Assembly: GCA_021292105.1 (NCBI GenBank)
Contig: JACFYK010000033.1
Span: forward strand, 124,001 to 188,000
DNA: 64,000 nucleotides
Reading direction: 5' to 3'
DNA from: Anadara kagoshimensis
Lineage: Eukaryota > Mollusca > Bivalvia > Arcoida > Arcidae
The notes beneath the pieces were generated by a model, which had not been told where the DNA came from, ran no database searches, and saw nothing but the letters and a program-made list of their open reading frames with translations. The position numbers were made by a program, and so were the translations under genes. Each line of letters starts with the position of its first letter. The first letter of the stretch is position 1. Below, piece after piece: positions 1 through 64,000 of this stretch.

Positions 1-211
1 TGTTTAAATAACTACGAATAAAATATCGGTATTGCCTTTGTTTATCATATTTTGTGATGGGAGATAGACACATTTAAACAGCAAACATGGCAGTTCATTA
101 AGATAAGAGGCATTAAAAAATGTATGAAAATAACCTCAGGAGTATAAATAGGTATTCTTCATTAAATACAGTACTATAAATGGTAAAATGCGTGCAAAGT
201 ATAAATAACAA

Positions 212-1133
212 GATGTGTTTGTGAAACACTATGCCCCCGGCAGCAAAGTTCATCTATGAAGATAAAATCTTTGGTACCAATCAAAAGGTCTCGCCACAAG
301 GAATACACATGCCAAATATGAAAGCCCTAGCTTAAAAGAGACAAAAGTTATGGACAAGGTTAAATTTGCGCAAGGACAGACCAACAAACAAACAAACAAA
401 CAAACAGACAGACCAAAAACAATATACCCCCGATCTTTCGATCGGGGCATAATAATATGAAAACCCTATCTTAAATAAGATTAAAGTTTAGCCAAAAACT
501 GTTATTTTCTTTAAGTAGGTCAAACGTTAAGGTAAAGGTCAGGAGGTAAAGAATTTTGGCACCAAAAGGTCTCGCCACAAGAAATGCACATGCTAAATAT
601 GAAAGCCCTAGCTTAAAGGAGACAAAAAATATGGCCAATGTTAAAGTTGCAGTGTTATTTTCTGTAAGTAAGTCAAAGAACAAGGCCAAGGTCACAACTT
701 TTAATGCCAATCAAAAGGGCTTGCCAGGAGAAATAAATGTACTAGATATGAACGCCATATCTTAAATAAGCTTAAAGCTATGGCCAAAACTATTATTTTC
801 TATAAAGGTCAAGGTGAAGGTCACGAAGTCATATTTTTTGGTATCAATGAAAATGTCATGTCAGAAGAAATACACATGCCAAATATGAAAGCCCTAGCTT
901 AAATAAGGTTAACGCTATGTCCAAAACTATTATTTTCTATAAATAGGTCAAAAGTCAAGGTCAAGGTCAGGACCTCAAATTTTTTGGTACCAATCAAAAG
1001 GTCTCGCCACAACGAATACACATGCCACATATGACAACCCTAGCTTAAATGAGATAAAAATTATGGTCAAGGTTAAAGTTGCAGTGTTATTTTCTCTAAG
1101 TAGGTCAAAGGTCAAGGTCACAACTTTTGATAC
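212..1133. repeat. GGTCA-rich repeat, 143-bp modules (mirror copy)
   Basis: Mirror of 34,770-35,694. A perfect AGGTCAAAGGTCA lies at 1,102-1,114. Confidence 0.85.
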
Positions 1134-1358
1134 TTTTGACAATTTTTAACGGACGTTACACAACATCTCAATTTTTCAAAAATATGTACATGTACATAAT
1201 TGTGTAAAAATGTACATGACAAACGACACATCTTAGTTAGAAAAATGTGTACAGGTTCTAAAACAAGTACATATTTTTATAATGTGTGAATCATTTTTCT
1301 TATCTGTAAGGTTACCTTGTGATTAACCCCGAGAATTAAATTTCCTTAACTCCTGACC

Positions 1359-1714
1359 CATAGGCGTAGGAGCAGGGGTGGACGGGGGCCCCCAATGTCA
1401 AAGGAGGGGGCAGGCACCAGCAATATAATGTGTGAAATTTTGTATCACAGTTATTTATATAATCTTGCCTTGATATTACAGTATTTTAACCTATCAAAAC
1501 GCTGCAAAATACATTGAAAATGCGTCCAGACAGGACTTAGTTTTGAAAATTATCCGGGAGATGCCCCCAAGACCCCTACCTATGCGAGGGGTTTAGCACC
1601 CCTCTCATACTCTCCCCGCATCATGCCTCTGACACGAGGTCGTACCTGCGGCACGACATAGACATAGCTTCAGGCTGCCCCCCCCCCCAATATTAAAACC
1701 GTCCTACGCCTATG
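1359..1714. mobile_element. MITE with 13-bp TIRs (mirror copy)
   Basis: Mirror of 34,190-34,543. Target duplication tgacc at 1,354-1,358 and 1,715-1,719. The C run here is 11 long against 10 in the other arm. Confidence 0.8.
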
Positions 1715-2786
1715 TGACCGACACATCATTACCCAATTCAAAACAATTATCTACCATTATATCTACAGTAATACTCCAAGGCTAGCTTGAGTTTAACACG
1801 CTGTGTGTACCTTAAGGTTTATTACCCAGTTTGTCTATGGGCCTGTTAAAAGTAGTAATAGTATTAGTAGTAGTAGAAATTGTTTATTAACGTGTCACAA
1901 ATCATACACAACCTTTAGATAAATAACACATTTAGCATTATAAAATACTAGTATATGAAATCCTGCCTAAAACATATGAGACACGATAAAAGTGGTGTTC
2001 AATATTTTACATAAAACATTTAGCATTACAAAATGTATGAGTGGAGTGGAGTAATGGTGTTTGACGTCCCTAATCAATGATATTTAACTTATATCGAGAC
2101 GTCGAGACACATTTCTACTACGTCGATATCGTATGGTTGAACTTCACGGAACTGGCAGTCATTATGAATGGTTCCTAGAGAGTTTTGATCCACTGGAACA
2201 TTGTAGTCTTACAGTATGGGTACCTCATACATGATATTTGATAATTTCCGTCTTGTTCCGGTCGAATTTCCGGTGACAGAATTTTCTATCCCACCTCAGC
2301 CTGAGATCGATCTATTTCTCAAACTAGGCTAGTCAGCGATGTGCATGCCCTCGATACGCAGTGAAAAATCCATACGAATTTCTTTTAGTTTTATTTGTTT
2401 ATTATCCAATTCCAAAATAAATGTATGATTTAATATAAAATGGATAGTACAATGCATGCTACGTAGTCAAATTTCGTAGGCAAGTACTGCTTGTGAAAAA
2501 CATGAATAAACAAGACTCTTGTGAAAACCGGATTTTGATAATAGTTCCGACCACGTTCGGCTTTCGCAAATACATATAACGCTTAGATAGCTTCGTGGTA
2601 CCCAATCCAGTTACATTGAATTACTTTAAATAATACGAAAGTTTTGACAAATTTGGCAATTCAACATTTCCCCACGTTTTTGAAAGACTATGGATTGTTC
2701 ATGCCAGTCATGAGGCATTCACCTTTTTATTCGAAAATAGGTGTAAGAGTAATGACACACATACAGTACAGGCCTGTCGAAAGTTT

Positions 2787-3027
2787 AACACTAAGCTAAC
2801 GAAAATAGGTCGAAGCTCGGCTGCCGAGGGGCCGAGATATAGACAGCTAGTGATCGAAAGCTATTTTTTTCTCGGCCTCTCGACAGCTTGAGGCTGTCCA
2901 AAGCTCGGCAGTTTATTTGGCCCCTCGCCAGCCGAGCTAAGCCACTAGCTAACGAGGAGTCGAGAAGCTATCGAGGGGCGAGCAGCTAACGAGTGGTCGA
3001 GCAGTTGGTCCCTCGTTATTTAGTGTT
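2787..3027. mobile_element. CTCG-rich foldback (mirror copy)
   Basis: Mirror of 32,878-33,118. Confidence 0.65.
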
Positions 3028-4404
3028 GGGCGAGTGGTCGAGCTGTTAAATAAATTTAAATAAATGAAGGGTAAAATATAAATATATTGTTTTAGAAGAC
3101 ATATTTTTCACATGTAGTGTGAATAAATGATATTATGAACAAGACTTAATATACACTTGTAGTCCATTTAATTCCGCCGGATTTTTAAGCGAGTTTTAGA
3201 ATAACAAATATACACATTTGTCCCTTTGTTTGGAACTTAAGGAAACTAATAGAAAATAATAATTAAGGAATGACCTACTATAGACCCAAGAACGTGCCAT
3301 TGGAGATCCTGAGTAATTATTTCTAATTCAAATCCCCATCTTTGAAAAATTTTATGTATGCTAGAATTATCATTATGATACCCCAGGTGCACGTGTATAG
3401 CAAGGGGAAGGAGGGAGGGTGGGATGTGGGTTCCATGAATAGATATCAAATTATCGGTACAATTTATATTACACTGAAGTGTGTTACTTAGAACCCATTT
3501 ATACTCCAAATTTGAAACAATTTAGTAATTAAGTTTCAAAACAAACCTGATTTATAAAATCATTGAGCTGCTTTGTTCATTGATAAAAGGATCTACATCC
3601 CAGAAAATCCAAAAGCCAGCCAAACTCAAGTTTACAGAGCTCATGACCCATTTAAACTTTTTTCAGCTATTCATGATGAGAGTTGATGGGAAGCTCAGTC
3701 AGTAGTGAGTCCTGTTAGGTGGATTGTCCCAGGTTTGCAGCTCAATCGTTGGCAGGACTGAGCCTGCCACTAGTATTGGGAAGGTCCCACGTTTTAGTCC
3801 AGGTTTATCCGCTGCATTTGTTCCCTATCCTGTTTTATACACTTCTTATTGATTTCAAGGATAAATCTTACACACAAATCCATGTTGCAGTATTGCAAGT
3901 ACTTCTGATTTGCATTGTACATGTGTACCATAATTTGCACACTTTATAACATTTTTAAATTATGATGACCTTTAGCGTGCTATACTACTTTGATCATTTG
4001 TCCACATACTTGCAGATACACATTGCAGACCAGTCAGTCCATTATACTGATACCTAGCTAACCAGTATAGGCCCACTGCATGGAAATTGGAAAATCAATT
4101 TTAGTCAAATCCACTGCAGTGAGGCAACTTAGGTTTGAAGGTTAACATATTAACCATGTTAACCAGTAGGTCATTGGTGGTTTTGCAGATCGTTTGTCAG
4201 TACCTTTCCAAAGATTGTTAGTTTTTTTCCTGAAACTCCAGTTTCCTCCACCATTTCTGAAATGTCTGTCTTGATATAAAACAAATAGGCTTTACTTGGT
4301 CTTAAAACAAAATTACCCCACTTAGCCATTACCCAAGTAATATGCAGGAGTCGTCATACTCAAAGAACTTTAATTTTGATTGCAAACCTCAGTTGTGAAT
4401 TGGT

Positions 4405-4524
4405 GTCATATACCATTTTTTGAATTTAATCATAAAATACATTCAAAAAATGGTATATGACAATATTGTCATATACCATTTTTTGAATGTATTTTATGAT
4501 TAAATTCAAAAAATGGTATATGAC
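4405..4524. mobile_element. 120-bp nested palindrome (mirror copy)
   Basis: Mirror of 31,381-31,500. The flanks read gaattgg before and ttggcatc after. Confidence 0.85.
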
Positions 4525-5077
4525 ATTGGCATCCAAAATTAGCAAATTTTGGTCATTTGCAAAGAATGCAAAGAGCTGTGGAATATTTCAAAAATTTTGA
4601 ATTTTTTTATTATCTACTGAAATTCACTTGTTTCCAGTGTAAAATCAAGAATTTGCATGCTATATTATTGAGATAAATGGACATAACTCTTGAAAACCAT
4701 TATTCAGAAATCTCAAAAAGTGCTAATGGCATCACAATTGCAAAAATCATGTCATTGCTTTTAGGATACATTAAAATGTGTATTTATGCAGAGTCATACA
4801 GTCAAAGTTGATGAATATTGTTTGTGTAAAATGTATTTATGCATTTTACACAAAGTTTTGCCATGTTTATGCTTTTAAGGATGGAATACACTGTCAGATG
4901 AAAGACAAATTGAAATTTATATTGGATGTGGATACTTTTGCCAGGTACTATGCACATAGAAATGAATGTCTTCAGGAGAGGGCTCAAAAATTTGTTCTGT
5001 TTCAATCTTATCCACCATAACTATTGAATATATATGTGTATTGTTCTGCAATTTCATAATAGCCAGTGATAAGTACA

Positions 5078-5079
<2 letters not shown>

Positions 5080-5136
<57 letters not shown>
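5080..5136. repeat. (AAT)n microsatellite
   Basis: Mirror of 30,764-30,824. It ends in an imperfect unit ('aatatc') not present in the third copy, and accounts for the five-base offset change between 1-8,000 and 56,002-64,000. Confidence 0.98.
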
Positions 5137-5137
<1 letters not shown>

Positions 5138-6199
5138 TCTTGACTTGATGAATTAAATGTAAAACCCCATTTAATCAATGACATATCTTAATTAAGAAGA
5201 TGATGATTAAATAAAACTTATTATTAATTCATCACAAATTAACATTTCCTCAAAATTGCTGACTTGACTGTGTGGATTGTAGGGTTGTTTATTTGGAATG
5301 CATCAACTTCTACCATAATTGATATCAATAAAATACTGATGATGCTAGATTACTCCTTATTCCTTATTAAACAACATTCTTCATATTTTAAACCTCAATT
5401 CACTGAATTCAATTAATATCCATCTACATTTTGATTGTAACACTACAGAATATAAGAATCTGAAACTTAGGCATTTAATGAGCTATTTTGCATATTTTTC
5501 TTTTCATTTACTTCAGTTTGAAAGCACTATTCAACTAGTAGAGATTGCTAGTACTCTGTCACAGATAAGTCCTCAAAAATTATTAATTCAGTTATTCTTA
5601 AGCTTTTTCAGTGAAAATAAATAAACCCTTTGAATATTTACAGTTTTTCTCCACAAAATGTTAAGTAAAAACAAGTATTTAGAACTTCAAGAATGATTGC
5701 AACAGCTTTGACTGGCTTTGGTCTACTCTATAATGTGGAAGGATTCTATCGTGTCTATACACTTGTCATTTTCCTGCTTTTATCGTAAACTTTACGAGGG
5801 TTAATTAGACTCAGGAATGAGAACCTCAACATTTACTTCTGATATTTCAATTTAAAAGTCAAGATATTTTTTCATTTATAACAAGACAGGCAGTTTTGGG
5901 ATGGTGGAATGTAGTAATGGTGTTTTATGCCCTAATCAATATTCTTTCACTTATACCGAGACAGTCAGTTCTGGGATGGTGGAGTAGAGTAATGTTGTTG
6001 TACTCCCCAGTCAAGATTATTTCACTTACATCGATATGGTCAGTTCTGGAATGGTGAAGTGGAGTAATGGTGTTTTATGCCCAGGTCAATATTCTTTCAC
6101 TTATAGGGAGTTTGAAAGTCTATAATATCCATGTCGTACATTTCGTTGAAAATAGTTTAAAATTCTCCACCATGTAATAATCTGTGGGGAATGCAGATT

Positions 6200-7586
6200 A
6201 TTAACCACAACAAGAGGCCCAATAGGGCCTGTAATGCTCAACTGGCAGATTACTTGAATCCAAAATGGCATTTTCTGTAGTTTGCTCATTGTAGTAATGG
6301 CATCCATCCTGAAATACGAGCTGGTTGCCTGGTTCAAACTTTAGTCTACCCCACCTAGGGATCTTCCACACTAAATCTAGTTCCAGTTGGCCAATGGTTT
6401 CAGAGAAGACAATTTTCAAAGAATTGATTAAATATGACACCTCATTTCCATAATTCTTGTAAATTGGGTCAAAAACCCATTACATTTGTTGAATGCGCCA
6501 CAATGGCTATTAAACCGTTTTTACTATTTAAAGTTACGGCGGCCATATTGGATGTCGGACGGGGTCGCCTGATACAGTGGTTTCAGAGGAGAAGATTTTC
6601 AAAGAATTGATTAAATATAACACTTCATTTGCATTATTTGTGAAAAACAGGTAAACGAAACATTTCTCTGAAAAACTTTTTACATATGTTAAATGCCCCG
6701 TTATCTACTTTGTACATTTCAAATTTGAACGAAATTGGTTGAAAATTGGATCCACAATGGCTTTTAAACCGTTTTTACTATTTATAGGAACGGCGGTTAT
6801 CTTGGATGTCGGACGGGGTCGCCTGGTACAAATTTTAGTCTACCCCACCTAGGGACCTTCCACACCATTTTTGGTTCCAGTCGGCCCAGTGTTTTCAGAG
6901 GAGAAGATTTTCAAAGAATTGATTAAAATATAACACCTCATTTGCAATATTAGTGAAAATTTGGTCAACGAAAAATTTCTCGGAAAAAACCCGTTAAATA
7001 TGTTAAATGCCCTGCTATCTTCTTTGTACATTTCGAATTTGAACAAAATCGGTTTAAAATTGGATCCACAATGGCTATTAAACCGTTTTTACTATTTATA
7101 GTAACGGCGACCATCTTGGATATCGGACGGGGTCGCATGGTAAAAACTTTAGTCTACCCCACCTAGGGACCTTCCACACCATATTTGGTTCCAGTTGGCC
7201 CAGTGGTTTCAGAGGAGAAGATTTTCAAAGAATTGATTATTGAATAATTAATGAAAAATTGGGTCAAAGAAAAATTTTTCGGAAAAACCCGTTACACATG
7301 TTGAATGCCCCGCTATCTACTTTGTACATTTCAATTTTGAACAAAAACGGTGAAAAATGAATTAACAATGGCTATTTATGTGTTTTTACTATTTATAGTA
7401 ACAGCGGCCATCTTGGATGTCGGGCGGGGTCGCCTGGTACAAACTTTAATCTATTCAACCTAGGGACTTTCACACCAGAGGAGAAGATTAAAGTTCACGC
7501 ACGGACACACGGACGCACGCACTCACGCACACACGCTTCACCATGCCATAAGCTCAGCTGGCTATAACCAGTTAAGCTAAAAACTA
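6200..7586. repeat. Interspersed repeat, 230-315 bp modules (mirror copy)
   Basis: Mirror of 28,316-29,702, with modules in the opposite orientation ('ggatgtcggacggggtcgcc'). Confidence 0.85.
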
Positions 7587-8485
7587 AAATAAATGTATTC
7601 TTTTTTTCAAATGTTTATTGCCGAAAGTTAACATTTAATTTTTGATATAATTAATAATAACAAAATACAGTTTCTAAATAATGTTGTTATGAGTAAAAAA
7701 TATTCATTAATAATTTTCCCACAATGAATAAATCCATTAAAATATAAATTTCTAATATTTTCTCTATTTTCTTAATACCAAAATCATAAATTTTTTTGAT
7801 AAAACTCACAAAACTCTCCCTTCCCGTCTCTACACATTCTTTTATCAAACTGAACTCCTCCCACTCTCACCCATCACTTTAACCTTATACCAAGTACTAG
7901 CTTTCCAAAAAAGCTTGCCTGACTAATCATTCATTTATAGGATTAATTGAATATATGTTCAATACACGATATTGTTTGCATGTGCAAAGATGTTAGTGGT
8001 GTTTTGGTATTGTAACACATTATTTAATTTTCTTATGTAAAAATGGTTAATTAGGAGATTTTAAAGAGTTAAATCAGGAAGTTAATGTGAAAAAGTAAAA
8101 ATAATGAGAGAATAAGCATCTGAAGACAGTGCTTAAAATGCAATGTATTACACAATTTTTATGCAACCGATCGTAGATCAGGCAAATTAAAATGTGAAAG
8201 ATCAATGAGCATGACATATGTAAATGTTGAGATATATGATACCTCACGCAGATGGTATCTTGTTGAAAACTTGATGTTTGAATTCATATTAAGCGTGAAT
8301 GTTACATAAAGAAAATTTTCATTTGAAAGAGTATGATGTAATAAATATAGTAAACAACAGACAAAAATAATCTGGATGAGGTCTAATGCCATTTAAAACA
8401 AAAATTACTCAATCTAAGAATGGTGTTACTTCATTTGAACACCTAGTGTATACATATAACTGATAATTTTCTGAAACGTCTTTGA

Positions 8486-8797
8486 CCACTATGGTAGCTC
8501 AGTTGATACAGTGCTTTCTACGTATGTGGGAGGTCAGGGTTCAAAGCCAGGCCTGGTCAGAACAAGACTTAAAATGGTATTGACTAAACTCGCCATTTAG
8601 AAATAAAAGTCACGGTGTCCTTCTAAATAGACCTTAAAAACCTTCGCCTCGTTTAACGGTAGGCATGACACACTAAAGAGTCCTCCCTGAGTGCACTGCA
8701 AAGGTAAAAATTTCTGTCAGTTCACCTTTAGCTGGTGAAGTCTCGATATAAGTGAAATATTCTTGCCTGGGATGTAAAATCTCATTCAATCAACCTC
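8486..8797 (+). mobile_element. tRNA-derived SINE with target-site duplication (mirror copy)
   Basis: Mirror of 27,105-27,416. Target duplications are aaacgtctttga (8,474-8,485) and aaacgtcgttga (8,798-8,809). The A box is near 8,492-8,507 and the B box near 8,549-8,560. Confidence 0.85.
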
Positions 8798-9013
8798 AAA
8801 CGTCGTTGAATAACTATCAATAAATTGCTAAATGTAATATTCATTTTTCCATTACCTCTTTGGAAAACGTTAAAACTACTCGGATAGCACTAGTAAAGCC
8901 TAAGTATACTACAAATAAGCATATATTAAACGATCTTATACTACTAATTAAAGCTACTTTTTAAAGAAATATTAGTTACAATAACGAGTAACTAGAAAAC
9001 TCGTCCGATCATT

Positions 9014-9391
9014 CGATTATCATCCCGGCAACCCAATTATGTCACCCGTCATTATGAATATATAAGGGGAGGTTAATTAAACGGCGGCATGCAAATATGG
9101 TGTACTAGAGAGAGTAGCTATACCGCGACAGGTCGAGTTGCGCAGTAATTCAGTTTCTAAAAATATCCCCGACCGCTTGATCCTTGGTGTAGATTTCGAT
9201 TATAATCCCGGCAACCCAATTATATCACCCGTCATTATGAATATATAAGGGGAGGTTAATTAACCGGCGGCATGCAAATATGGTGTACTACACAACATGT
9301 GGAGAGAGTAGCTATACCGCGACAGGTCGAGTTACGCAGTAATACAGTTTCTGAAAATATCCCCGACCGCTTGATCCTTGGTGTAGATTTC
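9014..9391 (+). repeat. Tandem duplication with TATA-like box and octamer (mirror copy)
   Basis: Mirror of 26,511-26,889. Copy one is 9,014-9,196 with the TATA-like box at 9,054-9,067 and the octamer atgcaaat at 9,089-9,096. Copy two is 9,197-9,391. Confidence 0.6.
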
Positions 9392-9643
9392 ACATTTTTT
9401 TTTTCTTCAAAGTTATTTTATGATAAAAAGCAGTTTTTAGGCAAGTACTGACATAAGTTTTCATTAGAATTTAATTAAAACATACAAATCTCCTGATAAA
9501 TGTAACACGTCTGGTCATACCACACATAAACAAAAATGGTCTTTCATACTTAAATTTGACCGTAAAATAGTCATTATACTTTAAAGTGAACGTTATCTTT
9601 TATCTTCAAGCAGATCAAATTCTAACAATATTGACAATATCAG

Positions 9644-9646
<3 letters not shown>

Positions 9647-9700
<54 letters not shown>
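9647..9700. repeat. (AC)n microsatellite
   Basis: AC run, mirror of 26,203-26,255. Confidence 0.98.
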
Positions 9701-10345
9701 TTTGCCTTTCAGTCAGTTCTGAGATGATGTAATCGATTAATGGTGTTAACACCCAAGTCAATATTTTTCTTGTATAGAGATGGTCAGTTCTGGGATGGTG
9801 GAGTGGAGTTTAACTTATTTCAAGACTGTCAGTTCTGGGATGGTGGAGTGGATTACTGGTGTTGTACTCCCCAGTCAATAGTAGCAAGGCGGTTAGTTCT
9901 GGAATGGTGGAGTAATGGTGTTTTACGCCCCAGTCAATATCTTTACAGTTATATCGAGGGGGTCAGTTCTGGGATGGTGGAGTGGAGTAATTGTGTTTTA
10001 TGCCTTGGTCAATATTTCATTTACATTGAAATGGTCAGTTCTCGGATGAGTCAGACCCGGTCGGGTTCGAACCCAAGACTTCCCACTTGCAGTTGTATAG
10101 AGGCAGTCATTTCTGGGATGAGGGAGTAATAAAAATGGTGTTTTAGAACCGTCAAGATTTTTTTCATGAATTCACTTGTCAAGGCAGTCAGTTCTGAGAT
10201 GGTGGAGGAAAACGGAGTACCATAAGAAACTGACAGCGAGCAAACAAATTATGTAGGTAGAGTCATTGTGATCGGTAGAGCGGCGCTATAGATCACTTAG
10301 TCGTCTAAATCCCTCTGAGATAGTGGAGGAAACAGGAGTGCCCTT
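9700..10345. repeat. Tandem SINE-tail modules (mirror copy)
   Basis: Mirror of 25,560-26,200. Plus-strand units start 'cagttctgggatggtggagt'. The B-box-like gggttcgaaccc is at about 10,062-10,073. The units are followed by two 'tggaggaaa(c)aggagt'-type segments at 10,200-10,345. Confidence 0.7.
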
Positions 10346-10639
10346 AGAAAACAACTTGCTTTCAGTAAGCAAATTTAGTTGATGTATCCACGTTGACTAT
10401 GAATAAGAATAGGAAGTATCAGTGACATAATATCGAGACAGTCAGTCATTAATATGTTTAAAAAAAATATGATTTCTTAGCAATTAAGTATTTAAAATTG
10501 TAAAATATATTTGAAAAATAATTGTAGACTGAATTGTAATTCAATTTTTGTACGATTCGGCACAAATGACATGCACGTTATTGCACCTATGGGGATAATA
10601 ATAGGTAAATAAACACGCTCACACAGACGTACTGAATGA

Positions 10640-11489
10640 TTATACTACATCAAAATTGTTTAGAATGATCATCTTGACAAAAGCTTGCTCAAGTTCGTAT
10701 ATTGGCTATGTTGGGTAAAAAATAGGTCACTAGGTCAAATTATATTCAAACCTTGTTAACACTCTTGAAGCCCTAATTTTGGTCTTATTTTCATCAAAAT
10801 TGTTCAGAATGATCCTCTTGACAAAAACTAGCTGAATTTCGTATTTAGGCCATCTTGGTTCAATAAGTAGGTCACTGGGTCAAGTTACAGGAGAACCTTG
10901 TTAACACTCTTGAAGTGTCAATTTTACTCCAATCTTCACTAAAATTGCTCCGAATGGTCCTTTTGACAAAAACTAGCTTCAGTTCGTATATGGGCCATAT
11001 TGGGTCAATAAGTAGGTCACTGGGTCAAATTATAGTTAAACCATGTTAACACTCTTAAAGCTCCAACTTTGGGTTAATCTTCATGAAAATTGTTCAGAAT
11101 GATCCTCTTGAAAAAAGCTAGCACAAGTTCATATATGGACCATGTTGGGTCAATAAGTAGGTCACTGGGTCAAATTATAGTAAAACCTTGTTAACATTCT
11201 TGAACTGCCAGTTTTAGTCTAATCTTCACTAAAACTGCTCAGAATGATCTTCTTGACAAAAGCTAGTTCAAGTTCGTGTATGGGCCATGTTGGGTCAATA
11301 AGTAGGTCACTGGGTCAATTATAGTAAAACCTTGTTAACACTCTTAAAGCGCCAATTGTTGTCCATCAGGATTGTTCATTTCCTATTGAAGAACACTGTT
11401 AGCCTTCTTGATCTAACATTGGTTGAAAATTTTGCTAAATTTAAATGATTCTCAGGTGAGCGTCCAGGGCCTCATGGCCCTCTTGTTTA
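10640..11489. repeat. Interspersed repeat with 145-bp modules (mirror copy)
   Basis: Mirror of 24,413-25,262. Here the modules read 'aataagtaggtcactgggtc' on the plus strand, and the end hairpin is near 11,466-11,481. Confidence 0.85.
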
Positions 11490-12452
11490 ATAACATCAGC
11501 TGTTGTTTTAATAGGTGGTGGTAGTGAATGAGATATTGGAATATTATTTACATCATAATTTATACCAATATTTTTATTTTTATCCGCTATAATAATTTCG
11601 TTATTATAATTTATAATTTTACCAATTCTTAATTTCATATCAGCGGGTGACATATATAAACCAACACCGTAAACAAAATTTACTTTACTACGTGCATGTC
11701 GATTGATAGTTAGAAATTTGAGTTGAAATATCTAGAGGACTATTTATCGCATCAATAATATTTGAAAAAAATTGTTTTTGTGCATCAAAAGCAGTTCCTA
11801 CACCTATTATATTTGTTCTAGCCTGTGCTTGTGAACTTAGAATTGCCCAACAATAAATTCTTATAGATTCATTAATTCGTTCTACACCGGCTTTAGTAAA
11901 CCCATCAGAATTATCAAGAATAAATGTAGTCCATCCATTTAATATTTTTTCTTCAAAAAAAAATAGATAGAAGTTCTTAAAAGTACTACATTAGATTGAC
12001 GTTGTGTCCAAATTGTATTTGGATCTACTTTAAACTCAAACTTCTTTCTTATAATTATTATATACAGGATTCCAATTTTTATTATGTAGAAGACAAACTT
12101 CTAATTCAGCTAATATTCTTCTTGTTTGATAATAAACATGAAATAAAAATAGTGATCCTACTAATCCTTTTGATTTTAAATGATTATTATAATCTACTCC
12201 ACAACCAGTGGTTGCACACCATACAGCAAAATTTAATTGATTTTGCCAAAACATAAAAGTATTTGTTTGAAATCGTTGAGTAATATCATAAGATTTTATA
12301 TTTAATAATAAATATTCATCGAATATATTTTCAAATAAAATATTAAAACTTTCACCATTTGATGAAACAATAATAAATTGTTTTACTATATTTAAATTAA
12401 TTTTTTCTTCAAATTTTGCCGCATATTGTCCTGGTTTAATTAGCTGATTCAT
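11481..12452 (-). pseudogene. Capsid-like protein (fossil, mirror copy)
   Basis: Mirror of 23,449-24,420. The minus-strand open stretches are 12,036-12,452 and 11,441-11,653; the latter runs past the end of the fossil into the adjoining repeat. Confidence 0.55.
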
Positions 12453-12477
12453 TATAAATAATTTTTTTCATTTTTTA

Positions 12478-13022
12478 TTTTATTTTTTAATATAATCAAC
12501 ACTAGCTTTATATATTAATCCACCTACTAAAATAATTAAAACCAATAAATTACTAGCTACCCATCCTAAAACTTTAATACCTGTTGATAATAACGATGAA
12601 ACAACAGAACCGAAAATACCTGGTAATGCTTCTGCTGCTTTTCCTGCTAATCTAGATAATAATTTACTAATATTATTTAATTGTTTTTTTATCCAATTTT
12701 TATCTTTCTTTTTCCCGCCATTACCCGTAATTGTAGTTTTTGGAATTAAAGCTTCTACAATTACATTCCAAAAGCAGTTAAAACACTAAAAATTGTAATT
12801 CCTTGTTCCCTAAATAATGTTTTTATTCTTTCCCCTAATGTTGTATCTTCATTTAATACTTTATCTATTGTTTCTTTAATTCTATTTATTTGAGTACGTG
12901 ATTTTTCTCTTTTAATAGATACTATTTCATTTGAGATACGTCTTTGCTCTTTTAATTTTTCTATTCGTTCATTTATTCTTTCTATTAAGTCACCATCATT
13001 ATTTTCTTTAGTTGCAACAGGG
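12478..13022 (-). pseudogene. Coiled-coil plus membrane protein (fossil, mirror copy)
   Basis: Mirror of 22,880-23,430 on the minus strand, directly upstream of the capsid-like piece at 11,481-12,452. Confidence 0.6.
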
Positions 13023-13027
13023 TTATG

Positions 13028-13432
13028 TGAAGCCTAAACTAGAAAGATCACTTAAAAAGTTTTATGGACACCATCACAATCTTATCGATAAATATGACAT
13101 TTCTGTGTCTGAAATTATTTCAGATATATTTATAGTCACTTAATTTTACACAATGTGTTTTCTCTCACTCGATTTGAGAATTACATGGATGTTGCTGCCT
13201 TCTGCAGCTCCCATGATATTTTACCAAGTTCGTTGTTCATTAATGTCGCACGACGGGTGTTGCTAGCAAAACAGGAGACGCTTACTCTTCCGGAGCACCT
13301 GGTCTCGCCTCCATTAACTGGGGGTTTGTGCGTTTTTTTTTTGAACTGTGCATTGTCTGTTGTTTATTATTTAAGGACTTTTCCTCTTGTTTAATGCTTA
13401 GGACTTTTGTGTTGGTTTAGCCCATTTTATTT
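13028..13432 (+). mobile_element. 5'-truncated LINE, 3' end (mirror copy)
   Basis: Mirror of 22,473-22,873. The end of the coding part is at 13,033-13,143 (plus strand, stop TAA), followed by the 3' untranslated segment and a T-rich end near 13,432. The 79-codon open frame at 13,155-13,394 lies within the untranslated part and is probably not a gene. Confidence 0.5.
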
Positions 13433-14076: not shown

Positions 14077-14077
14077 T

Positions 14078-14660: not shown

Positions 14661-14699
14661 AATTAATGATTTTAAGTAGTAAAGAAACAACAGCTCATG

Positions 14700-49606: not shown

Positions 49607-49696
49607 AAATGTTTAAATACATTTGATGGCCGTATTGTAAAATTAGAACATTTTTGGTTTTTATATTGTTGTGGCGATCCAATGTTTTCTTCTTAG

Positions 49697-51415: not shown

Positions 51416-51698
51416 TGTGAACATTGTATGGCGGCAGTGTAATATAAAAACACCTCAAGATATATATATTTTTTAGCAATTTTATACGATCAATAATTAG
51501 TTCTGAAAAATTACTTGATTAAAAATAAAATTGATAAAATTTATACTAAACCATTTTGTTCGTTATAATATCTTTACTTTAAACATCTAAAGTTCTTTGA
51601 ACAAGCAAATACTACTTTATTACTTTCCATAATTTTTAAGTGGTGCATGCCTACCAATGTATCTTATATTTACGTATTTTTGTAATTTATGATTTCAG

Positions 51699-52009
51699 GT
51701 TTTCAGAAAGGACAGATAAAAGATCATGTTCCCGAAAAATACCACAAACATATCCCACAACATATCCTGAATTCATACTTCTTTAAAACGGATGAGGATG
51801 CTAACAAATTTCTCGAAAATAGCTCGAAAGATGTAAGCTACATTGTGCATCACAGCACAAAATTATATGAACATATAAGGCAGAACCCAACGGAGGTTGG
51901 TAAAAGTGCCTTTATTGACATTGATCATTGGATAATCAATATTTTAGTCGATTGGGCAGACTTTGATTACATAATCTGCTCTGATCCAATCAGAGAAAAA
52001 CATTTTTAA
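51699..52009 (+). CDS. Possible terminal exon of an unknown host gene (mirror copy)
   Basis: Mirror of 39,891-40,201 on the plus strand, identical in the encoded sequence. Acceptor AG at 51,697-51,698. Confidence 0.45.
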
Positions 52010-52571
52010 ATTTAACAGGGAGTTATAGTCAGCATATTATAGATATCTTAAAACGGAGAGTATCTGAAACATTTGCCATTAACGGTGTTAATCTGTGTGC
52101 AACTTGCTTATCTTACTGTCTAATATGTCAGACAGACATATAATTATTAGCAATCTAATTACTATTCTATTAATATGTGAATCTTGTCACAGAAAGACAT
52201 TATTTTTTTCGATGAACTGTTAAAGTGTATATAGTTCTGAAAACTGCAATACCGAGTGGAGCAGGAAATGTATCATTGCGCATTTTGTTTGAATTTGGTA
52301 TTTGAAAATAATGATTTAAGTTTTAAAAATAATAATTTAGATAAACATTTGTACATTATTGTAAATACACGTAAATGAATCAACAATTAATCGGTCATCA
52401 AGGTTTTAACTGTTAAAAAAATGGTTTATGATTGGTGTTTAGCAGTTCATGTCTTCATGGCAAATTAAAAAAAAAATTAATTACAGAGTAAAAGATATAT
52501 AAATTGTTGGTAGATATTATCTAAACATGCATGTAAAACAGGAATTCTAATGCAAATATTATGTAACGTGA

Positions 52572-53540
52572 ATCACCATGCAATTATCTCAAATAACATT
52601 TAGTATACAAAAAAAAAAAACCCAAATTTACAATATTGTTATAGTCCACCTGATTATGTTGAATAACATGACAATATTGTAAATTTGCGGTTTTTTTGTT
52701 TTGTTTTGTATCCTAAATGTTATTTGAGATAATTGCATGGTGATAGTCCACCTGGTTATGTTGAATAACATTAAAATATTGTAAATTCTGATATTTAATC
52801 ATTGTGTATACTAAATGTAATTTGAGACAATTGCATGATGATAGTCAACCTGGTTATGTTGAATACACTAAATGTTATTTGAGATAATTGCATGGTGATA
52901 GTCCACCTGATTATGTTGAATTACATGACAATATTGTAAATTTCGATATTTTATCATTGTGTATACTAAATGTAATTTGAAACAATTGCATGTGTATACT
53001 AAATGTAATTTGAGACAATTGTATGATGATAGTCAACCTGGTTATGTTGAAAACACTAAATGTTATTTGAGATAATTGCATGGTGATAGTCCACCTGATT
53101 ATGTTGAATAACATGACAATATTGTAAATTTGGGTATTTTTTTTGTTTTGTATACTAAATGTCATTCGAGATAATTGCATGGTGAAAGTCCACCTGGTTA
53201 TGTTGAATAACAATACAATATTGTACATTTCAATATTTTATTATTGTGTATACTAAATGTAATTTGAGACAATTGCATGATGATTGTCAACCTGGTTATG
53301 TAATACACTAAATGTTATTTGAGATAATTGCATGGTGATAGTCTATCTGGTTATGTTATATAACATGACAATATTGTAAATTTGGGTTTTTTTGTTTTGT
53401 ATACTAAATGTTATTTGAGATAATTGCATAATGATAGTCAACCTGGTTATGTTGAATACACTAAATGTTATTTGAGACAATTGCCTGATGATAGTCCACC
53501 TGGTTGTGTTGAATAACATGACAATATTGTAAATTTAGTT
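52572..53540. repeat. Two-module tandem array with inverted end (mirror copy)
   Basis: Mirror of 38,370-39,330. Confidence 0.85.
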
Positions 53541-53739
53541 GCGTCATCCGAGGGCTTATAATAGGAAATATATATTTCTTTTTACAAGTTAAAAAAAAAT
53601 AATAATGAACATGCATTTCAACATTTATTGTAGCTAGAGAAGTTGGTTTAGATAATAGAGGAGGTTTATATGTGTTTATTAAAACACTTAAACGTTACAA
53701 GTTAAAGGTCATCGGGGAATTTTTATGTGAAGTAATTTC

Positions 53740-54128
53740 TGTTAAAGGGTACCTGTAACGATTTTTCATTTTCACATATTTTATTCCTCGTACTTAAATA
53801 TAACCGAAAATTTTATAAAAATTGATGCAGAAATAAGGAAGATATTGGTATTTTTTTAATACACTTCCGGTTAATCAAAATCGAAAAGGTCAGTTTTGGG
53901 GACCCCATGGTGTGATGTCACAGGAGTAACATGACCCTGCAGAATATCATTTACCTTCAATACTATAATACTTGACTGACTGTACATTCTTTTATTATTC
54001 AAGGTAAAATCATTTGATGAAGTATTTTGTAATTTATATATTATTGTTGCCACCAGTTATGTAACATTATTTGTGGCAAAAAGCATTTGTATGCTTAATG
54101 CAATAAAGATATTGAAATTGAAAATTGA
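53740..54128 (+). mobile_element. Possible LINE 3' end remnant (mirror copy)
   Basis: Mirror of 37,778-38,165, ending in AATAAA (54,102-54,107) and an ATTGAA-type tail. Confidence 0.4.
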
Positions 54129-55205
54129 AGTAGAATTTACATCCGATTGACACCTGCTGATAATTAAGAGATTATCATTATTTCACCTGGACAAAAATTA
54201 TGTTAATAACACATTCCTTTGGCTAAGACCGATATCTTTAATCAACACCTTTTCTCGTGTAAATCAATTGATTTACATGTGTCGTTTACAGTGACTTCAT
54301 GATACCTGGTAATATACTATCTCAATTGTTTGATGTTGTCTTGAATTTAGTATTCCATATTAATGAAATGATTGTGAAAAGATAATTATGTTAAAAAAAT
54401 GGGAGTTGAAATAAGTATGAACAGATGATAACTAGTACTGGCGACGGGTATTATAACAAAATTATTTAATTTTTGAAATAATAATCATGACATTTTACAA
54501 CGGTCATTATATTCTAATAGTCTTTTTTCTTCTTTCATTTCTACCCTTTTTTATATCATATAAATAAATAAATAAATAATAGTGTATCATTTAGGATGTA
54601 CGAAAAACAGTATGCTATTGCGATATCACGCAAAATGTCAGTTTTGTACTTAAAACTTTAAATCTTTACTAGGATGAATTGATTGCCTAATAATGCAAAT
54701 TTTTCTAGTCAGAAGAATCCTTTTAAACGGTATGTATGAATGTACTTGCAGCATTTGATTTTCAATTAAAAATACAACGGTTTTTCACTTGTTACTTAGT
54801 CACATCAGCCACATATAATACGTATAATATGCATTAAATGTCACTGGTGACATTCAATCCAAGATGTACTTATAAATACTAAAAAAATAAATAGATAAAT
54901 AAATAAATAAATAAATAACCTTTGAAACGTGCTCTCATAGATTGAAAATTACAAGAAATAATAATAACGATATATTTTTACCATTTAAACCATGATAATA
55001 AACTGTAAAATAATTTTAATTTGAAATGTCCTTGGTTTTATTTATTTATTTACCTAGCACTAAACGTTGAACAGTTATAAATAACTAAGTAAAAATGTCT
55101 ACTTGTGTGAACGACTTGAAGTCAGTGCCACGTTCGGGCATTTGATTTAAGATTTTGCATCATGATCTGCAGTCGGTAGCTAGTTTAGGCTGATTTTATA
55201 TTATC

Positions 55206-55372
55206 TTTTTAGCTCACCTGGCCTAAAGGCCATGTGAGCTTTTGCCATCACTCAGCGTCCGTCGTCCGTCAGTCTGTCAGTCAGTCAGTCAGTCTGTCCG
55301 TCTGTAAACTTTTCACATTTTGGCTATCTCCTCTGAAACCCCTGAACCAATTTTAACGCTTTTTTGTTTACA
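55206..55372. repeat. Bivalve repeat end with hairpin (mirror copy)
   Basis: Mirror of 36,530-36,697. Confidence 0.8.
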
Positions 55373-55644
55373 TAACAAAAATGTCAGAGATCGATGAAAT
55401 CGATAAAGCAAAATATTGTAATGTTATCAGTTGTTTTGACAATTGTTTAGTTTTATGAAACTCAACAGTTTGAATGGGTATTTTTTCTATTTTATACAGG
55501 ACTATGTTTTAGCGTAACGATTCCGTCCTATTTGCAGTATCTGAGTGACGCGTCTCACTAAATATAGATTGTAACACTTGCTGCTGGAAGTTCCGTTATT
55601 ATTTACAATGTTGTGTACAATTAAGTCGATTTTGCATTAGAATA

Positions 55645-55804
55645 GAGATAACCGTCTTGTATTTGAAGAGTTCCGACCGTAAAACGTGGATTTTAAAATC
55701 CACGTTTTACGGTCGCAAATTCCGGTTACCTGGTAGACCTCAATTTGCGACCGTAAAATCCACGTTTTACGGTCGGAACTCTTCAAATACATGACAGTTA
55801 TCTC
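55645..55804. mobile_element. Foldback element of 160 bp (mirror copy)
   Basis: Mirror of 36,098-36,257. Confidence 0.8.
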
Positions 55805-56212
55805 CTAATTTCATAAGGTGTTAAAAGGGAACATGTCCCTAATATACCAAAATAGGTAAAATATCTAAAGATGTACAAGAGTCTATGAAGTAGATGAACA
55901 AATATTTTGAGTTTTATTGTCCAAAACAGTAAAATATTATATGAACATATTATATAGAACCCGAATGAGGTTAATAAAATTGCATTAATAGAAAGAAATG
56001 TTGTTTAAATAACTACGAATAAAATATCGGTATTGCCTTTGTTTATCATATTTTGTGATGGGAGATAGACACATTTAAACAGCAAACATGGCAGTTCATT
56101 AAGATAAGAGGCATTAAAAAATGTATGAAAATAACCTCAGGAGTATAAATAGGTATTCTTCATTAAATACAGTACTATAAATGGTAAAATGCGTGCAAAG
56201 TATAAATAACAA

Positions 56213-57134
56213 GATGTGTTTGTGAAACACTATGCCCCCGGCAGCAAAGTTCATCTATGAAGATAAAATCTTTGGTACCAATCAAAAGGTCTCGCCACAA
56301 GGAATACACATGCCAAATATGAAAGCCCTAGCTTAAAAGAGACAAAAGTTATGGACAAGGTTAAATTTGCGCAAGGACAGACCAACAAACAAACAAACAA
56401 ACAAACAGACAGACCAAAAACAATATACCCCCGATCTTTCGATCGGGGCATAATAATATGAAAACCCTATCTTAAATAAGATTAAAGTTTAGCCAAAAAC
56501 TGTTATTTTCTTTAAGTAGGTCAAACGTTAAGGTAAAGGTCAGGAGGTAAAGAATTTTGGCACCAAAAGGTCTCGCCACAAGAAATGCACATGCTAAATA
56601 TGAAAGCCCTAGCTTAAAGGAGACAAAAAATATGGCCAATGTTAAAGTTGCAGTGTTATTTTCTGTAAGTAAGTCAAAGAACAAGGCCAAGGTCACAACT
56701 TTTAATGCCAATCAAAAGGGCTTGCCAGGAGAAATAAATGTACTAGATATGAACGCCATATCTTAAATAAGCTTAAAGCTATGGCCAAAACTATTATTTT
56801 CTATAAAGGTCAAGGTGAAGGTCACGAAGTCATATTTTTTGGTATCAATGAAAATGTCATGTCAGAAGAAATACACATGCCAAATATGAAAGCCCTAGCT
56901 TAAATAAGGTTAACGCTATGTCCAAAACTATTATTTTCTATAAATAGGTCAAAAGTCAAGGTCAAGGTCAGGACCTCAAATTTTTTGGTACCAATCAAAA
57001 GGTCTCGCCACAACGAATACACATGCCACATATGACAACCCTAGCTTAAATGAGATAAAAATTATGGTCAAGGTTAAAGTTGCAGTGTTATTTTCTCTAA
57101 GTAGGTCAAAGGTCAAGGTCACAACTTTTGATAC
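56213..57134. repeat. GGTCA-rich repeat, 143-bp modules (third copy)
   Basis: Direct copy of 212-1,133 at offset 56,001. Confidence 0.85.
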
Positions 57135-57359
57135 TTTTGACAATTTTTAACGGACGTTACACAACATCTCAATTTTTCAAAAATATGTACATGTACATAA
57201 TTGTGTAAAAATGTACATGACAAACGACACATCTTAGTTAGAAAAATGTGTACAGGTTCTAAAACAAGTACATATTTTTATAATGTGTGAATCATTTTTC
57301 TTATCTGTAAGGTTACCTTGTGATTAACCCCGAGAATTAAATTTCCTTAACTCCTGACC

Positions 57360-57715
57360 CATAGGCGTAGGAGCAGGGGTGGACGGGGGCCCCCAATGTC
57401 AAAGGAGGGGGCAGGCACCAGCAATATAATGTGTGAAATTTTGTATCACAGTTATTTATATAATCTTGCCTTGATATTACAGTATTTTAACCTATCAAAA
57501 CGCTGCAAAATACATTGAAAATGCGTCCAGACAGGACTTAGTTTTGAAAATTATCCGGGAGATGCCCCCAAGACCCCTACCTATGCGAGGGGTTTAGCAC
57601 CCCTCTCATACTCTCCCCGCATCATGCCTCTGACACGAGGTCGTACCTGCGGCACGACATAGACATAGCTTCAGGCTGCCCCCCCCCCCAATATTAAAAC
57701 CGTCCTACGCCTATG
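57360..57715. mobile_element. MITE with 13-bp TIRs (third copy)
   Basis: Direct copy of 1,359-1,714 at offset 56,001, again with an 11-base C run. Confidence 0.8.
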
Positions 57716-58787
57716 TGACCGACACATCATTACCCAATTCAAAACAATTATCTACCATTATATCTACAGTAATACTCCAAGGCTAGCTTGAGTTTAACAC
57801 GCTGTGTGTACCTTAAGGTTTATTACCCAGTTTGTCTATGGGCCTGTTAAAAGTAGTAATAGTATTAGTAGTAGTAGAAATTGTTTATTAACGTGTCACA
57901 AATCATACACAACCTTTAGATAAATAACACATTTAGCATTATAAAATACTAGTATATGAAATCCTGCCTAAAACATATGAGACACGATAAAAGTGGTGTT
58001 CAATATTTTACATAAAACATTTAGCATTACAAAATGTATGAGTGGAGTGGAGTAATGGTGTTTGACGTCCCTAATCAATGATATTTAACTTATATCGAGA
58101 CGTCGAGACACATTTCTACTACGTCGATATCGTATGGTTGAACTTCACGGAACTGGCAGTCATTATGAATGGTTCCTAGAGAGTTTTGATCCACTGGAAC
58201 ATTGTAGTCTTACAGTATGGGTACCTCATACATGATATTTGATAATTTCCGTCTTGTTCCGGTCGAATTTCCGGTGACAGAATTTTCTATCCCACCTCAG
58301 CCTGAGATCGATCTATTTCTCAAACTAGGCTAGTCAGCGATGTGCATGCCCTCGATACGCAGTGAAAAATCCATACGAATTTCTTTTAGTTTTATTTGTT
58401 TATTATCCAATTCCAAAATAAATGTATGATTTAATATAAAATGGATAGTACAATGCATGCTACGTAGTCAAATTTCGTAGGCAAGTACTGCTTGTGAAAA
58501 ACATGAATAAACAAGACTCTTGTGAAAACCGGATTTTGATAATAGTTCCGACCACGTTCGGCTTTCGCAAATACATATAACGCTTAGATAGCTTCGTGGT
58601 ACCCAATCCAGTTACATTGAATTACTTTAAATAATACGAAAGTTTTGACAAATTTGGCAATTCAACATTTCCCCACGTTTTTGAAAGACTATGGATTGTT
58701 CATGCCAGTCATGAGGCATTCACCTTTTTATTCGAAAATAGGTGTAAGAGTAATGACACACATACAGTACAGGCCTGTCGAAAGTTT

Positions 58788-59028
58788 AACACTAAGCTAA
58801 CGAAAATAGGTCGAAGCTCGGCTGCCGAGGGGCCGAGATATAGACAGCTAGTGATCGAAAGCTATTTTTTTCTCGGCCTCTCGACAGCTTGAGGCTGTCC
58901 AAAGCTCGGCAGTTTATTTGGCCCCTCGCCAGCCGAGCTAAGCCACTAGCTAACGAGGAGTCGAGAAGCTATCGAGGGGCGAGCAGCTAACGAGTGGTCG
59001 AGCAGTTGGTCCCTCGTTATTTAGTGTT
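58788..59028. mobile_element. CTCG-rich foldback (third copy)
   Basis: Direct copy of 2,787-3,027. Confidence 0.65.
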
Positions 59029-60405
59029 GGGCGAGTGGTCGAGCTGTTAAATAAATTTAAATAAATGAAGGGTAAAATATAAATATATTGTTTTAGAAGA
59101 CATATTTTTCACATGTAGTGTGAATAAATGATATTATGAACAAGACTTAATATACACTTGTAGTCCATTTAATTCCGCCGGATTTTTAAGCGAGTTTTAG
59201 AATAACAAATATACACATTTGTCCCTTTGTTTGGAACTTAAGGAAACTAATAGAAAATAATAATTAAGGAATGACCTACTATAGACCCAAGAACGTGCCA
59301 TTGGAGATCCTGAGTAATTATTTCTAATTCAAATCCCCATCTTTGAAAAATTTTATGTATGCTAGAATTATCATTATGATACCCCAGGTGCACGTGTATA
59401 GCAAGGGGAAGGAGGGAGGGTGGGATGTGGGTTCCATGAATAGATATCAAATTATCGGTACAATTTATATTACACTGAAGTGTGTTACTTAGAACCCATT
59501 TATACTCCAAATTTGAAACAATTTAGTAATTAAGTTTCAAAACAAACCTGATTTATAAAATCATTGAGCTGCTTTGTTCATTGATAAAAGGATCTACATC
59601 CCAGAAAATCCAAAAGCCAGCCAAACTCAAGTTTACAGAGCTCATGACCCATTTAAACTTTTTTCAGCTATTCATGATGAGAGTTGATGGGAAGCTCAGT
59701 CAGTAGTGAGTCCTGTTAGGTGGATTGTCCCAGGTTTGCAGCTCAATCGTTGGCAGGACTGAGCCTGCCACTAGTATTGGGAAGGTCCCACGTTTTAGTC
59801 CAGGTTTATCCGCTGCATTTGTTCCCTATCCTGTTTTATACACTTCTTATTGATTTCAAGGATAAATCTTACACACAAATCCATGTTGCAGTATTGCAAG
59901 TACTTCTGATTTGCATTGTACATGTGTACCATAATTTGCACACTTTATAACATTTTTAAATTATGATGACCTTTAGCGTGCTATACTACTTTGATCATTT
60001 GTCCACATACTTGCAGATACACATTGCAGACCAGTCAGTCCATTATACTGATACCTAGCTAACCAGTATAGGCCCACTGCATGGAAATTGGAAAATCAAT
60101 TTTAGTCAAATCCACTGCAGTGAGGCAACTTAGGTTTGAAGGTTAACATATTAACCATGTTAACCAGTAGGTCATTGGTGGTTTTGCAGATCGTTTGTCA
60201 GTACCTTTCCAAAGATTGTTAGTTTTTTTCCTGAAACTCCAGTTTCCTCCACCATTTCTGAAATGTCTGTCTTGATATAAAACAAATAGGCTTTACTTGG
60301 TCTTAAAACAAAATTACCCCACTTAGCCATTACCCAAGTAATATGCAGGAGTCGTCATACTCAAAGAACTTTAATTTTGATTGCAAACCTCAGTTGTGAA
60401 TTGGT

Positions 60406-60525
60406 GTCATATACCATTTTTTGAATTTAATCATAAAATACATTCAAAAAATGGTATATGACAATATTGTCATATACCATTTTTTGAATGTATTTTATGA
60501 TTAAATTCAAAAAATGGTATATGAC
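60406..60525. mobile_element. 120-bp nested palindrome (third copy)
   Basis: Direct copy of 4,405-4,524 at offset 56,001. Confidence 0.85.
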
Positions 60526-61078
60526 ATTGGCATCCAAAATTAGCAAATTTTGGTCATTTGCAAAGAATGCAAAGAGCTGTGGAATATTTCAAAAATTTTG
60601 AATTTTTTTATTATCTACTGAAATTCACTTGTTTCCAGTGTAAAATCAAGAATTTGCATGCTATATTATTGAGATAAATGGACATAACTCTTGAAAACCA
60701 TTATTCAGAAATCTCAAAAAGTGCTAATGGCATCACAATTGCAAAAATCATGTCATTGCTTTTAGGATACATTAAAATGTGTATTTATGCAGAGTCATAC
60801 AGTCAAAGTTGATGAATATTGTTTGTGTAAAATGTATTTATGCATTTTACACAAAGTTTTGCCATGTTTATGCTTTTAAGGATGGAATACACTGTCAGAT
60901 GAAAGACAAATTGAAATTTATATTGGATGTGGATACTTTTGCCAGGTACTATGCACATAGAAATGAATGTCTTCAGGAGAGGGCTCAAAAATTTGTTCTG
61001 TTTCAATCTTATCCACCATAACTATTGAATATATATGTGTATTGTTCTGCAATTTCATAATAGCCAGTGATAAGTACA

Positions 61079-61079
<1 letters not shown>

Positions 61080-61134
<55 letters not shown>
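61080..61134. repeat. (AAT)n microsatellite, third copy
   Basis: Third copy of the AAT run; the shortest of the three. Confidence 0.98.
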
Positions 61135-62195
61135 CTTGACTTGATGAATTAAATGTAAAACCCCATTTAATCAATGACATATCTTAATTAAGAAGATGAT
61201 GATTAAATAAAACTTATTATTAATTCATCACAAATTAACATTTCCTCAAAATTGCTGACTTGACTGTGTGGATTGTAGGGTTGTTTATTTGGAATGCATC
61301 AACTTCTACCATAATTGATATCAATAAAATACTGATGATGCTAGATTACTCCTTATTCCTTATTAAACAACATTCTTCATATTTTAAACCTCAATTCACT
61401 GAATTCAATTAATATCCATCTACATTTTGATTGTAACACTACAGAATATAAGAATCTGAAACTTAGGCATTTAATGAGCTATTTTGCATATTTTTCTTTT
61501 CATTTACTTCAGTTTGAAAGCACTATTCAACTAGTAGAGATTGCTAGTACTCTGTCACAGATAAGTCCTCAAAAATTATTAATTCAGTTATTCTTAAGCT
61601 TTTTCAGTGAAAATAAATAAACCCTTTGAATATTTACAGTTTTTCTCCACAAAATGTTAAGTAAAAACAAGTATTTAGAACTTCAAGAATGATTGCAACA
61701 GCTTTGACTGGCTTTGGTCTACTCTATAATGTGGAAGGATTCTATCGTGTCTATACACTTGTCATTTTCCTGCTTTTATCGTAAACTTTACGAGGGTTAA
61801 TTAGACTCAGGAATGAGAACCTCAACATTTACTTCTGATATTTCAATTTAAAAGTCAAGATATTTTTTCATTTATAACAAGACAGGCAGTTTTGGGATGG
61901 TGGAATGTAGTAATGGTGTTTTATGCCCTAATCAATATTCTTTCACTTATACCGAGACAGTCAGTTCTGGGATGGTGGAGTAGAGTAATGTTGTTGTACT
62001 CCCCAGTCAAGATTATTTCACTTACATCGATATGGTCAGTTCTGGAATGGTGAAGTGGAGTAATGGTGTTTTATGCCCAGGTCAATATTCTTTCACTTAT
62101 AGGGAGTTTGAAAGTCTATAATATCCATGTCGTACATTTCGTTGAAAATAGTTTAAAATTCTCCACCATGTAATAATCTGTGGGGAATGCAGATT

Positions 62196-63582
62196 ATTAA
62201 CCACAACAAGAGGCCCAATAGGGCCTGTAATGCTCAACTGGCAGATTACTTGAATCCAAAATGGCATTTTCTGTAGTTTGCTCATTGTAGTAATGGCATC
62301 CATCCTGAAATACGAGCTGGTTGCCTGGTTCAAACTTTAGTCTACCCCACCTAGGGATCTTCCACACTAAATCTAGTTCCAGTTGGCCAATGGTTTCAGA
62401 GAAGACAATTTTCAAAGAATTGATTAAATATGACACCTCATTTCCATAATTCTTGTAAATTGGGTCAAAAACCCATTACATTTGTTGAATGCGCCACAAT
62501 GGCTATTAAACCGTTTTTACTATTTAAAGTTACGGCGGCCATATTGGATGTCGGACGGGGTCGCCTGATACAGTGGTTTCAGAGGAGAAGATTTTCAAAG
62601 AATTGATTAAATATAACACTTCATTTGCATTATTTGTGAAAAACAGGTAAACGAAACATTTCTCTGAAAAACTTTTTACATATGTTAAATGCCCCGTTAT
62701 CTACTTTGTACATTTCAAATTTGAACGAAATTGGTTGAAAATTGGATCCACAATGGCTTTTAAACCGTTTTTACTATTTATAGGAACGGCGGTTATCTTG
62801 GATGTCGGACGGGGTCGCCTGGTACAAATTTTAGTCTACCCCACCTAGGGACCTTCCACACCATTTTTGGTTCCAGTCGGCCCAGTGTTTTCAGAGGAGA
62901 AGATTTTCAAAGAATTGATTAAAATATAACACCTCATTTGCAATATTAGTGAAAATTTGGTCAACGAAAAATTTCTCGGAAAAAACCCGTTAAATATGTT
63001 AAATGCCCTGCTATCTTCTTTGTACATTTCGAATTTGAACAAAATCGGTTTAAAATTGGATCCACAATGGCTATTAAACCGTTTTTACTATTTATAGTAA
63101 CGGCGACCATCTTGGATATCGGACGGGGTCGCATGGTAAAAACTTTAGTCTACCCCACCTAGGGACCTTCCACACCATATTTGGTTCCAGTTGGCCCAGT
63201 GGTTTCAGAGGAGAAGATTTTCAAAGAATTGATTATTGAATAATTAATGAAAAATTGGGTCAAAGAAAAATTTTTCGGAAAAACCCGTTACACATGTTGA
63301 ATGCCCCGCTATCTACTTTGTACATTTCAATTTTGAACAAAAACGGTGAAAAATGAATTAACAATGGCTATTTATGTGTTTTTACTATTTATAGTAACAG
63401 CGGCCATCTTGGATGTCGGGCGGGGTCGCCTGGTACAAACTTTAATCTATTCAACCTAGGGACTTTCACACCAGAGGAGAAGATTAAAGTTCACGCACGG
63501 ACACACGGACGCACGCACTCACGCACACACGCTTCACCATGCCATAAGCTCAGCTGGCTATAACCAGTTAAGCTAAAAACTA
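62196..63582. repeat. Interspersed repeat, 230-315 bp modules (third copy)
   Basis: Direct repeat of 6,200-7,586 at offset 55,996. Confidence 0.85.
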
Positions 63583-64000
63583 AAATAAATGTATTCTTTT
63601 TTTCAAATGTTTATTGCCGAAAGTTAACATTTAATTTTTGATATAATTAATAATAACAAAATACAGTTTCTAAATAATGTTGTTATGAGTAAAAAATATT
63701 CATTAATAATTTTCCCACAATGAATAAATCCATTAAAATATAAATTTCTAATATTTTCTCTATTTTCTTAATACCAAAATCATAAATTTTTTTGATAAAA
63801 CTCACAAAACTCTCCCTTCCCGTCTCTACACATTCTTTTATCAAACTGAACTCCTCCCACTCTCACCCATCACTTTAACCTTATACCAAGTACTAGCTTT
63901 CCAAAAAAGCTTGCCTGACTAATCATTCATTTATAGGATTAATTGAATATATGTTCAATACACGATATTGTTTGCATGTGCAAAGATGTTAGTGGTGTTT

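Follow-up and report, generated by a model that had tools for sequence, protein, structure and literature searches.

Organisation of the window

The window, by which we mean the whole 64,000-nt stretch of DNA analysed here, has the arrangement U'-loop-U-loop-U', in which a central unit, U, is flanked on both sides by partial copies of its reverse complement, U'. BLAST of the window against itself returned two overlapping inverted matches on the minus strand, 1-35900 and 27898-64000, and one direct repeat on the plus strand, in which 1-8004 recurs at 56002-64000. Together with the innermost base pairs at each turn, these matches bear out the anatomy proposed in the first-pass annotation, as well as its claim that the first ~8 kb returns in direct orientation 56,001 bases on. 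The features are as follows:

1..17942, minus strand: left U', partial; matches 17961 to ~35900 of U as its reverse complement, with no substitution but 26 indels in 17,941 bases
17943..17960, no strand: turn 1, an 18-nt spacer; stem extendable into the spacer with bulges; unlike the SMRTbell adapter
17961..45924, plus strand: U, the repeat-rich central unit of 27,964 nt, placed by self-BLAST and innermost pairs
45925..45962, no strand: turn 2, a 38-nt spacer; CGTA/TACG at its edges lengthen the stem with a 2-nt bulge
45963..64000, minus strand: right U', partial; reverse complement of U from ~27898 to 45924, from which it departs by 28 indels and 1 substitution in 18,027 bases of U
1..8004, plus strand: first copy of the direct repeat (part of U'); over 8,004 aligned columns the two copies differ only in the length of an (ATT)n tract, by 5 bases
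56002..64000, plus strand: second copy of the direct repeat, placed by self-BLAST and alignment
19540..24460, plus strand, with a mirror copy in U': decayed element bearing PolB-like fragments, delimited by eye on the ORF cluster

Base-by-base alignment gave 99.8% identity across ~18 kb in each arm pair, a match far above chance. When each palindrome was matched as a whole against itself by BLAST, the left one showed 3 mismatches and 56 gap openings and the right one 18 and 62, counts that include the loops, count every arm twice and rest on gap costs different from those of the per-arm alignment. Neither copy of U' is complete (17,942 and 18,038 nt). The length sum offered previously, 27,964 + 38 + 27,981 + 18 = 56,001, is correct as arithmetic, but its 27,981-nt U' is obtained only by joining the two partial copies via the period.

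At turn 1 the innermost pair is 17942/17961, with an exact stem of 74 bp closing the 18-nt loop, while at turn 2 the innermost pair is 45924/45963, with an exact stem of 19 bp closing the 38-nt loop. DNA folding with bulges allowed carried the stems into both loops. The 18 and 38 nt may therefore overstate the real spacers, and base-calling errors at the turn may have inflated their aligned lengths.

In the alignment, the shift between the direct copies is 56,001 as far as the (ATT)n array at ~5,132 and 55,996 thereafter; calculated from the two palindrome centres it is 55,984, with the remainder coming from net indels. Since two reflections always yield a translation, the 56,001-nt shift provides no evidence beyond the two palindromes themselves. 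Each turn is present once in the window, and the period would put the start of the next turn 1 at 73,944, outside it. The shift does not show that a molecule was read round more than once, and the earlier suggestion of a hairpin-capped strand read in this way is unnecessary because two fold-back junctions with a common U give the identical sequence, shift included.

The centre of U lies at 31,942.5 and that of the window at 32,000.5, an offset of 58 bases. By simple arithmetic such centring has a chance of ~0.4%, assuming arbitrary window placement and a unit centre every 28 kb. The source record may itself be symmetric about U.

Content of the central unit

U contains a (CA)26 array, a 145-bp tandem array, a 34-bp minisatellite and other short tandems. 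The minisatellite, at 40517-43305, comprises ~82 units with 68% matches, and its minus strand is open in several stretches of up to 178 aa; these long ORFs are probably spurious. A perfect palindrome of 122 bases at 31380-31501 is perhaps a small transposable element. No tRNA genes were found in the window, and no Rfam family matched at gathering score within 17940-45990.

The decayed element contains two DNA_pol_B_2 fragments, at 20031-20198 (E 0.0027) and 20270-20632 (E 0.0056), which are collinear in the profile and both under the Pfam cut-off. The polymerase looks broken, since the fragments belong to two different ORFs. Further short ORFs of the element (173 aa at 21771-22292, 103 aa at 23115-23426 and 143 aa at 23434-23865) had no Pfam match above cut-off. 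In all, none of the 16 distinct proteins scanned (sets of 10 and 8), which represent part of the ORFs of U, reached a curated Pfam cut-off, and the 8 proteins compared with PHROGs matched unnamed families at best (E 0.0051). Searching viral contigs with three pieces of the element gave 0, 20 and 6 pattern matches, none of which tblastn confirmed as a relative; single-protein queries of this kind catch close relatives only.

The PolB-like element would be an old insertion in the host chromosome and not the engine of a replicon. The first-pass annotation had taken this polymerase-bearing element as a ground for considering a real hairpin molecule. Because it appears broken and occupies ~5 of 28 kb, it offers no particular grounds for expecting a replicon with hairpin caps.

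Differences between the copies

Merging the two arm pairs, with each of the 9 single-base indels common to both entered once, left 46 rows of differences; entering the shared microsatellite once as well gives 45 distinct differences, of which 1 is a substitution. Between arms there is ~1 difference per 620-690 bases. The rate for the two U' copies is 1 per 8 kb, their sole difference across 8,004 columns being an (ATT)n array. In the 8 kb that is present three times, all single-base indels between U and U' (9/9) are common to both U' copies, so the differences track orientation, not copy. Copies that had existed for long would have gained substitutions unless homogenised.

The indels also show a strand preference. 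The longer homopolymer run was the pyrimidine on the plus strand in 24 of the 33 events that could be scored (two-sided p=0.0135; 13 of the 46 rows were unscorable), the longer-run base being T in 19, A in 6, C in 5 and G in 3, with 9/33 events in the opposite direction. The bias is modest and suggests strand-specific base-calling. Exactly the same indels in same-orientation copies, combined with this pyrimidine bias, would be explained by systematic base-calling error in a consensus drawn mostly from one read direction per copy. A mapper can, however, sort the reads of a true palindrome by strand, so strand bias alone is no proof against a real palindrome. The single substitution and the orientation-linked differences fit sequencing error between arms of one haplotype, although a very young real palindrome might differ as little.

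The differences are also unevenly placed, with 12/45 lying within 1 kb of a turn. Because the turn-flanking kilobases are AT-rich (jointly 26% GC vs 32% for U), homopolymer runs were used as a control: 159/1978 runs of at least 3 bases (p=1.7e-4) and 33/283 runs of at least 5 (p=0.0045) lie within the same distance. Against uniform placement, p was 0.005 or less at each of four widths from 500 to 2000 bases, a test that used slightly incorrect bounds for U (17962-45943) and thereby counted 11/45 differences within 1 kb, where 3.2 were expected. Among 11 hand-picked differences outside homopolymers, 6 fell within 1.1 kb of these bounds, with 0.9 expected. In 2-kb blocks, there were 8 differences at turn 1, and 3 and 2 in the AT-rich internal blocks over 19961-23960. 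Clustering also occurs away from the turns, as the internal block 37961-39960 holds 6. The greater density of differences at the turns suggests that these are spanned by few reads, though poor base-calling right after a fold-back can have physical causes.

Origin of the inverted copies

We consider a fold-back read or assembly artefact of long-read sequencing to be the best explanation, with a probability of about 85%. The starting point would be one ordinary 28-kb piece of repeat-rich genome, of which a strand and then its complement would be read out at two turn points, ~17,952 and 45,944; the assembler would then link the two fold-back junctions via their common part, U, giving U'-U-U'. Such fold-backs could arise during library preparation, when a 3' end snaps back and is extended or when the strands at a duplex end are joined. 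Several observations support the first-pass annotation in making an artefact its leading reading: substitutions are limited to 1 of the 45 differences, both U' copies carry identical indels, and differences cluster at the turns. Though short of proof, these patterns and the strand bias suit strand-specific base-calling error at weakly supported fold-back junctions better than biological divergence, and favour such junctions over a genuine 56-kb molecule.

The window also resembles published artefacts. According to PMC12870357, fold-backs make up ~0.55-0.6% of Oxford Nanopore genomic reads, with virtually none in the PacBio HiFi set examined; library preparation is the suspected source, and flagged reads with >11 bases at the turn are typically fewer than half. 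In that paper a fold-back is defined by a second part that is the reverse complement of the first and a turn within 200 bases. The window shows both, as a strand runs almost perfectly into its own complement and the turn takes up far less than this distance. Unlike them, it has two turns in one polished sequence, with spacers of 18 and 38 nt as aligned, so an assembler must presumably have walked both. After whole-genome amplification, according to PMC13265396, palindromic reads occur, often with several inversions, and impair assembly; in three table rows they account for 34-38% of matched mitochondrial reads. The window shares with the multiple displacement amplification chimeras of PMC1855051 and PMC13265396 inverted joins inside one molecule, and with reads of the latter multiple inversions. 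The inverted joins in PMC1855051 are described with an intervening deletion.

Besides the modest strand bias and the clustering away from the turns, further points weigh against an artefact. First, the consensus quality implies more than one raw read, and assemblers would seldom keep a single chance fold-back. Second, two distinct fold-backs on one 28-kb unit require amplification or lax assembly. Third, a very young or gene-converted real palindrome would likewise be without substitutions.

If adapters had gone undetected in PacBio subreads, we infer that one polymerase read would yield U'-U-U'. Neither turn region resembled the SMRTbell adapter in local scoring: turn 1 reached a best score of 10 and turn 2 one of 8, both below the background maximum of 15 from 300 random 200-base stretches. 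The adapter, at 45 nt, would also not fit into spacers of 18 and 38 nt. Missed adapters were rejected on these loop sequences and are, in our estimate, extremely unlikely.

The end kilobases of U gave weak matches of 11-26 bases to each other, the best being 26 bases at 85% (E 0.007); no long inverted or terminal repeats were found between them, and no tandem TTAGGG or CCCTAA was found within the window. Weakly alike ends without tandem TTAGGG are as expected if the break points are arbitrary. A recent inverted duplication, chromosomal or extrachromosomal, could form via fold-back at broken ends as an inverted-dimer circle or linear palindrome, of the breakage-fusion-bridge or Leishmania type. 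The order U'-U-U' with short spacers would be the expected product of repeated fold-back repair, and 0-1 substitutions fit a recent event. This origin is nevertheless unlikely, given differences that track orientation and gather at the turns, the lack of a long inverted repeat between the end kilobases of U, and the instability to be expected in vivo when arms of 28 kb are separated by 18 and 38 nt. Leishmania is known to form linear amplicons that contain inverted duplications (PMC4256157). As in the window, a unit is present in both orientations; those amplicons arise at repeated genome sequences, whereas none was found here between the end kilobases of U.

Hairpin-telomere replicons are found in Borrelia, N15-type phages and poxviruses, and a strand closed at both ends reads U-loop-U'-loop. 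Protelomerase ends have loops of a few nt. The window shares the U-loop-U'-loop readout of such replicons, and a natural linear dumbbell, closed covalently by a hairpin at each end and read along its one continuous strand, would account for one non-palindromic spacer per turn and, with all reads coming from one strand with fixed loops, for orientation-linked errors too. We nevertheless regard such a molecule as highly improbable. Unlike in these replicons, no intact replication gene was recognised among the 16 ORFs scanned; U is repeat-rich with a broken PolB-like element, and 0/16 distinct ORFs, a part of those in U, reached Pfam cut-off. The end kilobases carry no terminal repeats, the spacers are longer than protelomerase loops, and with each turn present once no repeated circuit is demonstrated. 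Reads of a dumbbell should also cross the turns equally well, so the lost agreement there is unexpected, unless base-calling suffers after a turn. As a 30-base pattern, turn 1 had no match in viral contigs, and no dumbbell-like or inverted molecule was described in the titles and abstract openings of the mollusc-directed papers retrieved. That a 28-kb piece of a repeat-rich, eukaryote-like genome was folded back at both ends within the organism and copied as a dumbbell or a 56-kb inverted-dimer circle is scarcely more probable.

The pattern in the sequence is confirmed and a biological dumbbell is unsupported; the feature is most likely an artefact of sequencing and assembly and not real biology. 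If so, it is a warning on giant false palindromes in assemblies, and suggests signs by which they might be recognised without reads, namely same-orientation copies that share indels and differences heaped at the turns. A real feature of this kind would represent an unusual extrachromosomal or inverted form of DNA in an apparent eukaryote.
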